64,000 bases of DNA, from the NCBI RefSeq assembly GCF_002014855.1, contig NZ_MUYV01000002.1, positions 101,328 through 165,327 on the forward strand, in the 5' to 3' direction. Made by a program: the position numbers and the translations under genes. Positions 60,002-63,937 of the stretch are shown here, one piece after another (the first letter of the stretch is position 1; every line of letters starts with the position of its first letter). The DNA is from Moraxella porci DSM 25326 (lineage in GTDB: Bacteria; Pseudomonadota; Gammaproteobacteria; Pseudomonadales; Moraxellaceae). The notes under the pieces are model-generated. The model made no database searches. It was given only the letters and a program-made list of their open reading frames with translations, and was not told the origin of the DNA.

Positions 60002-60763
60002 TCAGATGGCTTGTTTTTCGGTGAGGTAGCGCCAGTATCGCTTGGGCATCTGCTGGATGTGATGCCTAAGATTCTTACGCTCAGCGATGGTGACATGCTT
60101 AAAATAAGTCTGCCACAGATGCTGATAACGCGCCTCCACTTCGTCATGATGCTTTTTGGGTTGTGCCAAAATGAACGCATCCACATCGACCACCTCAGTC
60201 AGCTGCCTTGTCTGTTTATCATAATAAATGCCAAAATAACGCTTTTCATCAAAAATCAGCCAGCTTTGGTCAGCGAATCGGCGCGCAAAGAAACGCCCAA
60301 TCAGCGGCAAGACATTAAAATCAGGGCTGACTTTGGCAAAATACACCCCACCGACCATCAGCTCAAAGCGCACAAAGGCTTGCATACGATGGCGCTCACG
60401 GCCGACGATTTTGATGGCGCGATGAAAGCTTGCCACCGATGCATCGGTGTGGTGATTTAGGATATTTATTTCAGGCTGTTTGATCTTTTGGCGGATGATG
60501 TGATAAATGTGCGTATAAATATCAGGCTGTTCAGATAAAAACGCCCATAAAATCATATAATTATCACGGCCAAATAATGCTTTTAGCTTATTCCAAACAC
60601 GCTCAGACTTCTGAGCGCTGGTATTAATGTCGACATGCTCTATCAAAAAATCTGGCACAAAATCACGGCGCGCAGTGATCGCACTTACCGCATACGACTG
60701 TGCGTACGCCTCGAACACCGCTGTCAAAAACCCATCAAAGCTGTCATCAAACACCAAATTCAT
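60002..60763 (-). CDS. DUF4130 / TIGR03915-type putative DNA repair protein
   Basis: A 253-residue protein with YDDSFDGFL-like FDDSFDGFLTAVFEAY at the start, RERHRMQAFVRFELM in the middle and MPKRYWRYLTEKQ at the end, matching DUF4130 (TIGR03915). In known genomes this family travels with a radical SAM protein of the TIGR03916 group, and in some it is fused to a UdgX-type uracil-DNA-binding protein, hence the repair label; its biochemical activity is unknown to me. It starts inside the radical SAM stop codon (ATGA overlap at 60760-60763), indicating translational coupling. Confidence 0.85.
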   Translation of the reverse strand: MNLVFDDSFDGFLTAVFEAYAQSYAVSAITARRDFVPDFLIEHVDINTSAQKSERVWNKLKALFGRDNYMILWAFLSEQPDIYTHIYHIIRQKIKQPEINILNHHTDASVASFHRAIKIVGRERHRMQAFVRFELMVGGVYFAKVSPDFNVLPLIGRFFARRFADQSWLIFDEKRYFGIYYDKQTRQLTEVVDVDAFILAQPKKHHDEVEARYQHLWQTYFKHVTIAERKNLRHHIQQMPKRYWRYLTEKQAI

Positions 60764-62016
60764 GCAAACAAATCCAGCTGAGCGGCTTTGCGAAATTTAC
60801 TTGAGGTATCATTCAGCACGATTTGGCGAAAATCATCCTGCTGCAAATATTGCAGCGCTGGATTGGGCGCACGAAACGCCACAAAGTACTTGGCGCGGTT
60901 GGTCGCAACGCCAAATTTTTTGAGGTCATCTAAGGTCAGCGTGGTGAATTTGCGCGCTTGGACGATCTTTTTGGCACTGCGCACACCGACGCCTGGGATG
61001 CGCAGAATCATCCGATACGGCGCGGTCTGTATGCACACAGGAAAATGCGCCTTGTTGCGGATCGCCCACGCCAGTTTCGGATCGCATTCCAAATCCAAAA
61101 ACGGATTGTCCCGATCCAAGATCTCATCGGCTTCAAATTGATAAAAGCGCATCAGCCAGTCGGCTTGGTAAAGGCGGTTTTCACGCACAAACGGCACTGG
61201 CGTATCTTTGGTTGGCAAACGACTGTCCTCAAGCATCGGCACATAGCCTGAATAATACACCCGTTTAAGATCATATTGCTGATAAAAATGGCTCGATAAG
61301 CGGATGATCTGATGGTCGTTTTCATTCGATGCGCCGATGATGAACTGGGTCGATTGACCTGCTGGCACGAATTTTGGGGCGTGCTTGTGGGTTTTTTGGC
61401 TGTCTTTAAAAACGGCGATCTGCGTTTGCACCGTCTGCATCGGCGCTTTCATGTCATCATGGTTCTTCTCAGGTGCCAGCAGCGCAAGGCCTGAGATGGT
61501 CGGAATTTCCATATTCACCGACAAGCGATCGGCATATAAACCCGCTTCTTTCATCAGCTCATCGGATGCACCAGGGATGGTTTTTAGATGAATATAGCCA
61601 TGAAAACGGTGCGTCAAGCGCAGCTCTTTGGCGACGCGTACCAGCCGCTCCATCGTGTAGTCGGGATTTTTGAAGATGCCTGAGGACAAAAACAAGCCCT
61701 CAATGTAGTTGCGACGATAAAACTCCATCGTCAGATCCACCACCTCTTCGACCGTAAAGGCGGCGCGCTCCGTGTCATTGCTACGGCGCGAGGTGCAGTA
61801 GGCGCAGTCATAGATGCAGTGGTTGGTGAGCAAAATTTTTAGTAGCGAGACACAGCGGCCATCTTCGGTGTAGCTGTGACAGATGCCTGATTTGGAGGAA
61901 TCACCAAGGCCGCCGCTGTTTTTGCGATTGCCGCCGCTTGATGAACATGAGACATCATATTTGGCAGCATCGGCCAAAATGGCCAGTTTTTTTGAAATTC
62001 TGTCGTAATTGATCAT
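60760..62016 (-). CDS. putative DNA modification/repair radical SAM protein (TIGR03916-type)
   Basis: A 418-residue protein. The [4Fe-4S]/SAM motif CIYDCAYC is at 67-74 (CX3CX2C). Extra cysteines at 24, 46 and 55 and a Ser/Gly-rich N-terminal segment precede it. A helix-hairpin-helix, ILRIPGVGVRSAKKIV, sits at about 337-352, suggesting nucleic-acid binding, as in SplB-like enzymes. The C-terminus reads AAQLDLFA, a near-perfect beta sliding clamp-binding pentapeptide. The ATG at 62016 has no strong ribosome site. It forms an operon with the DUF4130 gene. Substrate unknown. Confidence 0.9.
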   Translation of the reverse strand: MINYDRISKKLAILADAAKYDVSCSSSGGNRKNSGGLGDSSKSGICHSYTEDGRCVSLLKILLTNHCIYDCAYCTSRRSNDTERAAFTVEEVVDLTMEFYRRNYIEGLFLSSGIFKNPDYTMERLVRVAKELRLTHRFHGYIHLKTIPGASDELMKEAGLYADRLSVNMEIPTISGLALLAPEKNHDDMKAPMQTVQTQIAVFKDSQKTHKHAPKFVPAGQSTQFIIGASNENDHQIIRLSSHFYQQYDLKRVYYSGYVPMLEDSRLPTKDTPVPFVRENRLYQADWLMRFYQFEADEILDRDNPFLDLECDPKLAWAIRNKAHFPVCIQTAPYRMILRIPGVGVRSAKKIVQARKFTTLTLDDLKKFGVATNRAKYFVAFRAPNPALQYLQQDDFRQIVLNDTSSKFRKAAQLDLFA

Positions 62017-62025
62017 ATCAACTAT

Positions 62026-62064
62026 ATTATCTCAATACTCTCTTAATTTATCTTACACTCTTAA
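62026..62064. repeat. two similar direct repeats upstream of the radical SAM gene
   Basis: On the minus strand TTAAGAGTGTAAGATAAA (62047-62064) and TTAAGAGAGTATTGAGATAAT (62026-62046) share TTAAGAG-x-GTA and GATAA and lie side by side just upstream of the ATG at 62016, so they overlap the likely promoter. They look like a tandem operator but match no known factor. Confidence 0.45.
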
Positions 62065-62242
62065 ATAAAATTTGGGTCTATCACTAAGCCTGCGACAAGG
62101 CGCTATCCATCTTAAATTATAACAAAACTACATCCAAAAGATAGCAGCGTATGCCTGAGTTTTTTGGGAATTTTGTGTTAAATTTTACCAAAGCGTATTA
62201 CAATGTGATTGATTTTGATCACTGCTTACAGATCAGCGAAAA

Positions 62243-62256
62243 GGCGATGTATCGCC
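62243..62256 (+). other. short palindrome next to the AlkB-like ribosome site
   Basis: GGCGATGTATCGCC is a 6-bp perfect palindrome with a 2-base centre, 15 bases upstream of AAGGA. It may be a protein-binding site or a small hairpin limiting ribosome access. A -10-like TACAAT lies at 62199-62204. Confidence 0.35.
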
Positions 62257-62275
62257 GATAAAAAAGGACAAATCC

Positions 62276-62914
62276 ATGTCGCAACACGACTTATTTTCAC
62301 CCTTAAACTTAAGCATCGATCCGACGGTGGCTAATCTTTTGCCTTATGATGGCATTGTGCAGGATTGTGGGGTGATTTTTAGGCAAGACGATGCCGATGC
62401 TTATTTTGATGCGCTGTACGATGGGATTGATTGGCAGCATGATGTCCTCAAGCTCTACGGCAAAACCATCACCACTGCAAGGCAAGTAGCGTGGTATGGC
62501 GACGATGGCGTGCAGTATCGCTATTCAGGCAGCACACGCACCGCTTTGCCTTGGCCTGAGCCGTTATTACAACTCAAAGCTGCGATCGAAGCAAGGCTGG
62601 CAGCGATCCATCCTATCAGCTTCAATGCCTGTTTATTAAATCTGTATCACGATGGCAGTCAAGGCATGGGATGGCACAGTGACGATGAGCCAAAGCTGGG
62701 GCAGATGCCGATCATCGCATCCTTAAGTTTGGGCGCCACCAGAAAATTCGTACTGCGCCACAAATCCAGCAAACAAAAGATCGAGCTTTCGTTAGCACAC
62801 GGGCAGCTGATCGTCATGCGCGGCAGCACTCAGCGCTACTGGCAACACGCCTTAATGAAAACCACCAAAGTGCAGCAGCCACGCATTAATCTCACCTTTC
62901 GGCAGATACTGTGA
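62276..62914 (+). CDS. AlkB-like alpha-ketoglutarate-dependent dioxygenase
   Basis: A 212-residue 2OG-Fe(II) oxygenase. The iron triad is MGWHSDDEP (His134, Asp136) and YWQHALMK (His191); the 2-oxoglutarate Arg pair is in PRINLTFRQ (203 and 209). It resembles the ALKBH2/3-type AlkB group found in many bacteria, which oxidatively removes alkyl groups such as 1-methyladenine and 3-methylcytosine from DNA. Residues 3-7 read QHDLF, a clamp-binding-like pentapeptide. AAGGA lies seven bases before the ATG. It is divergent from the radical SAM/DUF4130 operon. No ada or other alkylation genes adjoin. Confidence 0.9.
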   Translation: MSQHDLFSPLNLSIDPTVANLLPYDGIVQDCGVIFRQDDADAYFDALYDGIDWQHDVLKLYGKTITTARQVAWYGDDGVQYRYSGSTRTALPWPEPLLQLKAAIEARLAAIHPISFNACLLNLYHDGSQGMGWHSDDEPKLGQMPIIASLSLGATRKFVLRHKSSKQKIELSLAHGQLIVMRGSTQRYWQHALMKTTKVQQPRINLTFRQIL

Positions 62915-62940
62915 TCGGGACTGATGATCAAAATGAGTGA

Positions 62941-63555
62941 TCATTTGGCAAGCTGATTCACCCAGTCGATCACGGTGGCGACCTGCTGATCATAATCACT
63001 GATACGATGATCACCGCCTGCCTGTGCCAGCACGCCTGCGCCTTTTTGGGTATAAAAATCTTTAGTCGCCTGAGCATCCAACAGCTCATCGCCCAGCTTT
63101 AAGAGGACTTTTAGGCGATCTGGATATGCCGCCTGTAAACGATGGTCATCAAACCACGCCAGATCCCCATAGACGATCTGCCATCCGCCTGTGGTGGTGT
63201 AGATCACCGTATCTGCTTGCAAAGCCTGTCCACCATCATCAGCAAAATTATCCTGCAAAAATCGGCGAAAGCTAAGATCTGGGCGGATGCTAGGATTAAG
63301 CAATACCGCAGGCACGCCGGTCATGTCCGATAATAGATTGGCAAAATAGCCGCCCAAGCTCGACCCGACCAATACCGTATCCACACCATCGCCGATCAGC
63401 TGTGTCAATAACGCCACAACTTCATCAGGCGAGCGGTTCAAATCAGGGCGGATGACAGTGATGTCAGGATGATGCTCTTGGCAATAAGCATCGGTGATCT
63501 GAGCTTTGATGGCATTGCTGTCGCTGTCAAGTCCGTGTAGATAAATCAATCGCAT
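62941..63555 (-). CDS. yqiA: YqiA-like alpha/beta-hydrolase (esterase)
   Basis: A 204-residue UPF0227-type hydrolase: RLIYLHGLDSDSNAIKAQIT at the start, the nucleophile elbow LVGSSLGGYFANLLS (Ser about 84) and a C-terminal GGDHRISDYD with the catalytic His. E. coli YqiA is an esterase with preference for short acyl chains and is encoded near parE; here parE is 3 kb away, so the neighbourhood is loosely kept. Natural substrate unknown. It converges on the AlkB-like gene with a 26-base gap. Confidence 0.85.
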   Translation of the reverse strand: MRLIYLHGLDSDSNAIKAQITDAYCQEHHPDITVIRPDLNRSPDEVVALLTQLIGDGVDTVLVGSSLGGYFANLLSDMTGVPAVLLNPSIRPDLSFRRFLQDNFADDGGQALQADTVIYTTTGGWQIVYGDLAWFDDHRLQAAYPDRLKVLLKLGDELLDAQATKDFYTQKGAGVLAQAGGDHRISDYDQQVATVIDWVNQLAK

Positions 63556-63691
63556 GGGCGTTTCTCTATGTGTTCAAATGTTTAAAAAAATCATTGCCTA
63601 AGCATCACTTCTTAGGATATATTAACAACCAAACCATCTTAACAAATTTTTTGCCAAAATCTAAGTAGTTTTTGGCATAAGCTATCGCATC

Positions 63692-63937
63692 ATGTCGCAA
63701 TTTGAACTATTTGGCATCGACAGCCCTTGCATCGGTGTCTGTACGATGAATAAAAAAGGCTATTGTATCGGCTGTCTGCGTAATCGGACAGAGCGACAGG
63801 CGTGGCATCAGATGAGCGATGATGAAAAGCGAAGAGTCATTCTGCTCATCACACGCCGAGCCAAACGTATCCGCGATCATCGAGCAAGTAAACGAAACGG
63901 AGAATCTATGGCTATAGAACAGTTGGGAATGTTTTAA
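63692..63937 (+). CDS. DUF1289 small Cys4 protein with clamp-motif-like termini
   Basis: An 81-residue protein. Four cysteines form SPCIGVC and GYCIGC (Cys 13, 17, 25, 28), a probable metal-binding knuckle typical of DUF1289. The rest is basic and helical (RRVILLITRRAKRIRDHRAS). Residues 3-7 are QFELF and the last five are QLGMF, both resembling beta-clamp-binding pentapeptides. No strong ribosome site is visible before the ATG; function is unknown. It is divergent from yqiA. Confidence 0.72.
   Translation: MSQFELFGIDSPCIGVCTMNKKGYCIGCLRNRTERQAWHQMSDDEKRRVILLITRRAKRIRDHRASKRNGESMAIEQLGMF

Follow-up and report, generated by a model that had tools for sequence, protein, structure and literature searches.

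For proteins docking on the bacterial sliding clamp DnaN a consensus has been published, Q-phi-x-[L/M]-[F/L] as a pentamer or Q-phi-x-[L/M]-x-[F/L] as a hexamer; according to the accessible part of the same source (PMC11139829), such motifs reside, among other places, in flexible N- or C-terminal tails and are used by Pol II, Pol IV/DinB, Pol III alpha, Hda and other clients, while no radical SAM or DUF1289 protein is named there among them. In a 64,000-nucleotide stretch of Moraxella porci DSM 25326 (contig NZ_MUYV01000002.1, positions 101,328 to 165,327; hereafter the window, numbered from its first letter) four peptides of this kind had been predicted at the ends of three neighbouring proteins: a radical SAM protein of 418 amino acids (60760-62016, minus strand), an AlkB-like 2-oxoglutarate/Fe(II)-dependent oxygenase of 212 amino acids (62276-62914, plus strand) and a DUF1289 protein of 81 amino acids with four cysteines (63692-63937, plus strand). 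Upon re-reading, all four were found exactly where this original prediction had placed them: QLDLFA (60763-60780, minus strand) terminates the radical SAM protein, which ends AAQLDLFA, MSQHDLF opens the AlkB-like one (62276-62296, plus strand), while MSQFELF (63692-63712) and EQLGMF (63917-63934, both plus strand) lie at the two ends of the DUF1289 protein. Their presumed fit to the clamp consensus was confirmed only in part: QLDLF and QLGMF obey it strictly, while QFELF, with an aromatic residue in position 2, and QHDLF, with histidine there, conform only to the loose form Q-x-x-[L/M]-F (Q..[LM]F). Based on the data described below, one can assume with a probability of about 0.72 that short linear motifs in flexible ends tether two or all three of the proteins to DnaN. 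Judged by their sequences, the three families are uneven in this respect: the motif is strongly predicted in the radical SAM tail and looser at the DUF1289 C-terminus, and the case is weak for the AlkB-like protein.

The radical SAM protein scores 657.5 bits against TIGR03916 (rSAM_link_UDG; NCBIfam cut-off 343.5), thus belonging to this family, and is recognized by Pfam Radical_SAM as well. TIGR03916 has matches in 46 of 249 Pseudomonadota genomes and in 79 of 148 Bacteroidota genomes, with 39 and 41 of them, respectively, exceeding the cut-off; Caulobacter is a positive among the control genomes. The 80 matches over the cut-off made up the sample of tails, of which 78 are readable, the other two (L225 and L338) being cut by ends of contigs or fragments; the profile covers the window protein (418 residues) as far as residue 413, i.e. 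nearly to the tail, so that selection of the sample was not wholly independent of it, and among all the loci read some represent one genome twice (L060 and L202, for instance). The pattern Q[LMGAVI].[LIFMV] is kept in all 78 readable tails, 39 from each phylum. The published pentamer was registered in 27 of 39 Pseudomonadota and 18 of 39 Bacteroidota tails, and together with the hexamer these numbers become 29 and 18 (47/78 in all), the rest being near variants that retain the glutamine. For 59 tails read from the best 30 loci of each phylum, pentamers in the last 10 residues (21/30 and 15/29) were compared with shuffled tails, which gave means of only 0.15 and 0.23 and never matched the observed counts in 2000 trials. 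Among the closest relatives of the window protein, taken as the best 80 of at least 584, are, judging from the record titles, proteins of Moraxellaceae, Bacteroidota and one Cardiobacteriaceae bin, along with one record titled Streptomyces; their tails read QL[SATNVG]LF or QMALF with the exceptions of QLALL (L053), QGELF (L074) and QLNVFG (L084). The same element was found in all seven records that we hand-picked for taxonomic spread from 158 matched in a plasmid collection and that represent Bacillota, Fusobacteriota, Bacteroidota and Pseudomonadota. It is followed there by a variable number of residues: none in Spirosoma and Azospirillum (QLSLF in both) and in Acinetobacter baumannii (QLSLGF), 3 in Fusobacterium (QLKLF) and Pusillibacter (QLSLF), 15 in Acetoanaerobium (QLSIF) and 34 in Subdoligranulum (QLSLF). 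Thus, in these records the motif shifts relative to the C-terminus and its flanks vary, while the glutamine and the hydrophobic residues remain constant. The A. baumannii variant QLSLGF resembles QLVLGL of Pol IV, cited in the accessible part of PMC11139829. Taken together, these sequences make the radical SAM tail very probably a functional clamp motif.

A simpler explanation would be that the peptides are chance matches or reflect a constraint at the nucleotide level, imposed by overlap with the start of a downstream gene. The loose motif is indeed short. Within the window, it occurs in the last 10 residues of 2 of the 60 open reading frames (ORFs) of at least 80 amino acids (radical SAM and DUF1289) and in the first 12 residues of 3 of them (AlkB-like, DUF1289 and a HAD-type protein). 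The HAD-type match, MKKLQAVLFDLDGT, was judged to be a false positive, probably arising by chance, and a match to the regular expression alone is therefore no evidence. As a background we used 319 unique ORFs of at least 100 amino acids surrounding the 80 radical SAM relatives, with the radical SAM gene itself removed. Looser patterns do find some of them: Q[LMGAVI].[LIFMV] occurs in the last 17 residues of 5 and the last 40 residues of 22, and Q..[LFIMY]F in the first 16 residues of 3. The loose motif Q..[LM]F, however, was met in none of the 319, neither in the last 10 nor in the first 12 residues, and the published pentamer or hexamer in none of them within the last 40 residues; shuffled tails likewise never reached the observed numbers. 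In the genome of Moraxella bovoculi the pattern Q-[LF]-x-[LF]-F-TRA, which leaves TAG stops outside, occurs at 8 places (reversed control pattern, 5), only one of which ends an ORF longer than 40 amino acids, and this ORF is the radical SAM gene. As for the nucleotide level, the radical SAM motif is encoded by 105 distinct 15-mers among 132 loci, and 105 of the 132 have no overlap with the next gene, which points to selection acting on amino acids; these counts came from 139 loci, 7 of which were missed by the narrower pattern used, although each of these 7 carries the glutamine. Chance and nucleotide constraint thus retain almost no probability, being refuted for the radical SAM tail and, within its own branch, for DUF1289.

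Some peculiar records were encountered among the matches. For L071, the radical SAM match from Psychrobacter sp. JCM 18901, the length is not divisible by three, which suggests a frameshift near the gene start in this assembly, and its tail QLALF is intact. The record titled Streptomyces cinereus JCM 3040 (L010, BMPS01000001.1) encodes a radical SAM protein 78% identical to that of the window, and the same genome carries an AlkB-like gene (53% identical); mislabelling or contamination of this record is probable. Several "plasmid" records (NZ_CP134663.1, NZ_OL790811.1 and NZ_AP026896.1) look like entire chromosomes, with sizes of 4-5 Mb and few annotated genes.

The gene next to the radical SAM one (60002-60763, minus strand) encodes a DUF4130 protein, which scores 238.5 bits against TIGR03915 (cut-off 112.25). 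The two genes overlap by ATGA, and a DUF4130 relative is present in 78 of 80 radical SAM loci. In Azospirillum this partner is fused to a UdgX-type domain, and the window pair, exceeding both family cut-offs, thus resembles a TIGR03916/TIGR03915 system with UdgX. DUF4130 is discussed in PMC3765255, whose main text mentions neither a sliding clamp nor PCNA; the clamp motif is a new element with regard to this description. No open PMC paper treating UdgX together with radical SAM was found. The partner was also considered as a carrier of the motif, and no match to the consensus was found in four DUF4130/UdgX partners read or at either terminus of the window DUF4130 protein.

The DUF1289 protein of the window belongs to PF06945 (67.4 bits, cut-off 27), possesses the four cysteines and is covered by the profile in residues 11-56, which leaves both termini outside. 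PF06945 matches were found in 142 of 299 Pseudomonadota genomes. We collected 154 loci among the matches listed, 5 from chosen genomes (40 of the first 75 were hand-picked before their sequence was seen), and 148 of them were readable, with no match to the core pattern in L118, L143, L351, L369, L384 and L412. A YdhL-type branch was delimited by R-x-x-E-R after the fourth cysteine, i.e. independently of the motif, and comprises 27 loci. In all 27 of them Q..[LFIMY]F is present no more than 16 residues before the first cysteine, and in none of the 121 other DUF1289 loci. The C-terminal motif follows the same division: the loose Q..[LM]F was found in the last 26 residues of 15 of the 27 YdhL-type loci, the loose form or the hexamer in 18, and any of the counted forms in 0 of the 121 others. 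In 44 aligned sequences Q3 and F7 are as invariant as C13, C17, C25 and C28, and the N-terminal motif is located approximately 5 residues upstream of the first cysteine. C-terminal tails of 39 representatives (75% identity) contain the consensus pentamer or hexamer in 14 cases, against 0.86 in shuffled tails (never reached in 2000 trials), and a wider form in 18 cases, against 1.39. Tails of Psychrobacter and Moraxella type (P0071, P0092, P0101, P0057 and P0017) have an internal hexamer, for example QLELDF, and several of them also end in LF; this hexamer is the core of LQLELDF, the most abundant peptide in a phage display described in the accessible part of PMC11139829. In Proteus the two ends read EQLEFF and EQLDLF. 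The structural model assigns the core blocks pLDDT (predicted local distance difference test) values of 91-93, and the end blocks only 64, 55 and 51. Based on this set of sequences, the N-terminal peptide is probably a functional clamp motif, and for the C-terminal one the balance inclines slightly to the same role.

Homologues of this protein bear source names such as "Fe-S protein", and its four-cysteine module is probably metal-binding. A fold search of the PDB with the DUF1289 model gave two matches with a best E-value of 8.2, and solved structures searched by sequence yielded a single match (E-value 0.36) and no relative. On each of two viral contigs (L005 and L006) a YdhL-type DUF1289 protein is encoded that has the N-terminal motif, one of them also ending in QQELF, and two relatives of the other DUF1289 kind from phage genomes are devoid of this motif.

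The branch is represented in Escherichia coli K-12 by YdhL, a DUF1289 protein with both terminal motifs (QLEFF in VAEQLEFF at the beginning and QPSLF in EQPSLF at the end), 39% identical to that of the window and, in contrast to it, encoded away from alkB. The ydhL gene is divergent from nemR-nemA-gloA and has ydhF and sodC on its downstream side. According to the parts of the publications available, a clone over-expressing it belonged to those able to grow at a threefold minimal inhibitory concentration of H2O2, with ydhL listed among candidates for resistance to both H2O2 and HOCl (PMC8228696); its mutant was one of 37 in which rifampin no longer induced persistence to ofloxacin, together with recA, recG and ruvA (PMC5845583); and it has an entry in the table of a screen for ciprofloxacin tolerance (PMC13131330). 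All these entries are screen hits and do not describe a mechanism. Lines adapted to honey acquired mutations between ydhL and nemR, as stated in the accessible part of PMC8127710, and in view of these intergenic mutations and the divergent arrangement ydhL may share electrophile control.

Human ALKBH2 binds PCNA, a parallel invoked in the original prediction for the AlkB-like protein; this binding proceeds through an N-terminal AlkB homologue 2 PCNA-interacting motif (APIM). The parallel has some merit: structures of ALKBH2 are the nearest solved ones to the window protein (106 bits), ahead of E. coli AlkB (29 bits), and a short N-terminal peptide is present in both. The motif itself, however, is different, ALKBH2 having the APIM, a motif named in PMC11139829, and the bacterial proteins a DLF mostly without glutamine. 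In the portions of the clamp-motif literature seen here, AlkB appears through the eukaryotic APIM or as a partner of SSB, and the MLDLF peptide was not found among the matches listed for open PMC papers on the beta clamp and AlkB. The window protein belongs to PF13532 (124.4 bits) and falls below the thresholds of the AlkB equivalogs (37.1 against 231.05 for TIGR00568 and 53.5 against 267 for PRK15401). Within the first 10 residues, [LM]F was found in 58 and [DE]LF in 41 of the 65 sequences that represent the 120 listed homologues, the background values being 12/319 and 1/319. In a broader PF13532 sample (30 loci and 6 of 7 others) only some members have LF peptides at the N-terminus; this sample was left uncounted, as the starts are ambiguous. 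E. coli AlkB begins with MLDLF and its A. baumannii counterpart with MTLDLF. Judging by chain offsets in the PDB, several crystallised constructs of E. coli AlkB are devoid of approximately 10 N-terminal residues, so that the peptide seems to be dispensable for the fold. A conserved short peptide at the N-terminus of AlkB-like proteins is likely as far as their sequences are concerned; that it serves as a functional clamp motif is a possibility with the odds somewhat against it. In A. baumannii (L318:641-2103) the AlkB-like gene follows a gene for methylated-DNA-cysteine methyltransferase with an overlap of 4 bases, a pair reminiscent of E. coli ada-alkB.

Several observations weigh against docking on DnaN as a common purpose of these peptides. 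Of the 39 readable radical SAM tails in each phylum, 10 from Pseudomonadota and 21 from Bacteroidota have neither published form. The former ten read QMLLI, QLQLI, QGSLF, QMALW (3), QMGLWG and QLGFGF (3), the last being similar to the tails QLEFEF, QLQFDF and QLKFTF of Bacteroidota DinB; the latter consist of QLTLW and 20 endings of QLxLPGLF type (with variants QLVLPGMG and QLLLSGLFA), which span L215-L228 and L328-L337 and make up 20 of the 39 readable Bacteroidota tails. They recall QLSLPL, the clamp form of Hda. In 8 genomes the QLxLPGLF pattern was found at 10 places, 4 of which are radical SAM tails, while none of the 6 others falls in an ORF of more than 235 residues (stop to stop), so that no other clamp client was seen with this form; seven DinB-like proteins from Bacteroidales-type genomes also had no tail comparable to it. 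The radical SAM model, built with 20 sequences, drops below a pLDDT of 50 at residues 410-418 following blocks of 86-94 over residues 311-400, but it is poor overall (mean pLDDT 65.6), with residues 17-85 below 50 as well, and its low-confidence tail is thus weak evidence of disorder. At the DUF1289 N-terminus the strict consensus was observed only in 6 of 27 YdhL-type loci, with position 4 being mostly F and both QFELF of the window and QLEFF of E. coli deviating from it, and at the C-terminus in 4 of 27, where position 2 is often P, Q or R. The high frequency of Q-x-[ED]-x-F (119 of 120 DUF1289 homologues and 38 of the 39 representatives) is biased, as these homologues were ranked with their termini included, and only the 27/27 count given above is free of this bias. 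Finally, the glutamine is not conserved in the AlkB-like peptides, and in the window protein histidine stands at position 2 in place of an aliphatic residue. Thus, the conservation expected for the terminal peptides in the original prediction was decisive for the radical SAM tail, held for the DUF1289 N-terminus in the loose form and within the YdhL-type branch, was partial for the DUF1289 C-terminus, and failed in the AlkB-like family for the glutamine, which occupies position 1 in only 4 of 65 representatives, although DLF is kept.

Such deviations would be expected if the peptides bound partners other than DnaN, namely DUF4130/UdgX for the radical SAM tail, its own cysteine module for the DUF1289 peptide and its own catalytic domain for DLF of the AlkB-like protein. 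The overlap of the radical SAM and DUF4130 genes with their almost constant association, the position of the DUF1289 motif immediately before the cysteines combined with its frequent departure from the strict consensus, and the scarcity of glutamine in AlkB-like proteins all favour this possibility. Extension of the radical SAM motif by 0 to 34 residues in the compared records would, however, be unusual for a fixed interface, the tails of both radical SAM and DUF1289 proteins are modelled with low confidence, and unrelated families approach the published clamp consensus, which makes other partners unlikely.

The radical SAM protein presumably consists of a radical SAM core, a helical C-terminal domain of helix-hairpin-helix type and a disordered tail with Q-L-x-L-F; if the peptides do dock on DnaN, it would be attached to the clamp by this tail. 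The helix-hairpin-helix region is suggested by the sequence IPGVGVRSAKKI and by residues 249-353, which match RuvA weakly (E-value 0.077). Other relatives among solved structures are also weak by sequence (best E-value 0.0091), and the fold search with the low-confidence model returned mostly radical SAM enzymes among the best 50 matches. Together with DUF4130, which in Azospirillum is fused to a UdgX-type uracil-DNA binding domain, the enzyme may modify or repair bases on clamp-loaded DNA, either newly made or gap-filled. The YdhL-type DUF1289 protein is a small module whose four cysteines are closely preceded by a nearly invariant clamp-like peptide and whose flexible tail terminates in a second one that evolves faster, and it could fill one or both pockets of the clamp dimer. 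The AlkB-like DLF peptide, usually lacking glutamine, may provide weaker binding or interact with another partner.

A bolder and rather doubtful variant is that TIGR03916 is a clamp-tethered radical SAM family and that the YdhL-type DUF1289 protein regulates the clamp in a bivalent, stress-linked manner. Its cysteine module would then respond to redox state or metal, the end motifs would fill both pockets of one clamp dimer or join two clients, and upon oxidative or electrophile damage the protein might displace polymerases or keep the clamp in place on DNA, acting as a bacterial counterpart of small PCNA ligands. Such ligands are exemplified by p21 and PAF15, and the likeness to them, consisting in small size and a clamp-binding peptide within a flexible region, is in idea only. 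To our knowledge, TIGR03916 would be the first clamp-tethered family of radical SAM enzymes. In the open PMC literature, subscription papers being outside this scope, neither TIGR03916 nor DUF1289 was found as a clamp client, no assigned function was found for either family, and no paper was found on predicted clamp-motif proteins or on the combination of sliding clamp, radical SAM and clamp-binding. Were docking on DnaN correct, two widespread families would gain a concrete and cheap hypothesis, that they work at loaded clamps; the tether would place TIGR03916/DUF4130/UdgX on freshly synthesised or repaired DNA, narrowing the search for a substrate, and the presence of YdhL in E. coli K-12, where the DnaN pocket is solved, makes the idea directly testable.

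The original prediction also linked the three genes by position, and this part was largely refuted. That they form a functional cluster of clamp-docked repair proteins is favoured only by their adjacency within approximately 4 kb of the window and is very improbable. Relatives of AlkB or DUF1289 (tblastn, E-values up to 1e-5) were found in none of the 80 radical SAM loci within 3.5 kb or, in some loci, less on each side. The orientations of the genes differ, and a YqiA-like esterase gene (62941-63555, minus strand) intervenes between the AlkB-like and DUF1289 ones. Their clustering in the window is thus probably a coincidence. In four genomes possessing both DUF1289 and AlkB (G001, G002, G004 and G005) the two are located on different contigs, and in E. 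coli alkB follows ada, while ydhL is situated elsewhere.

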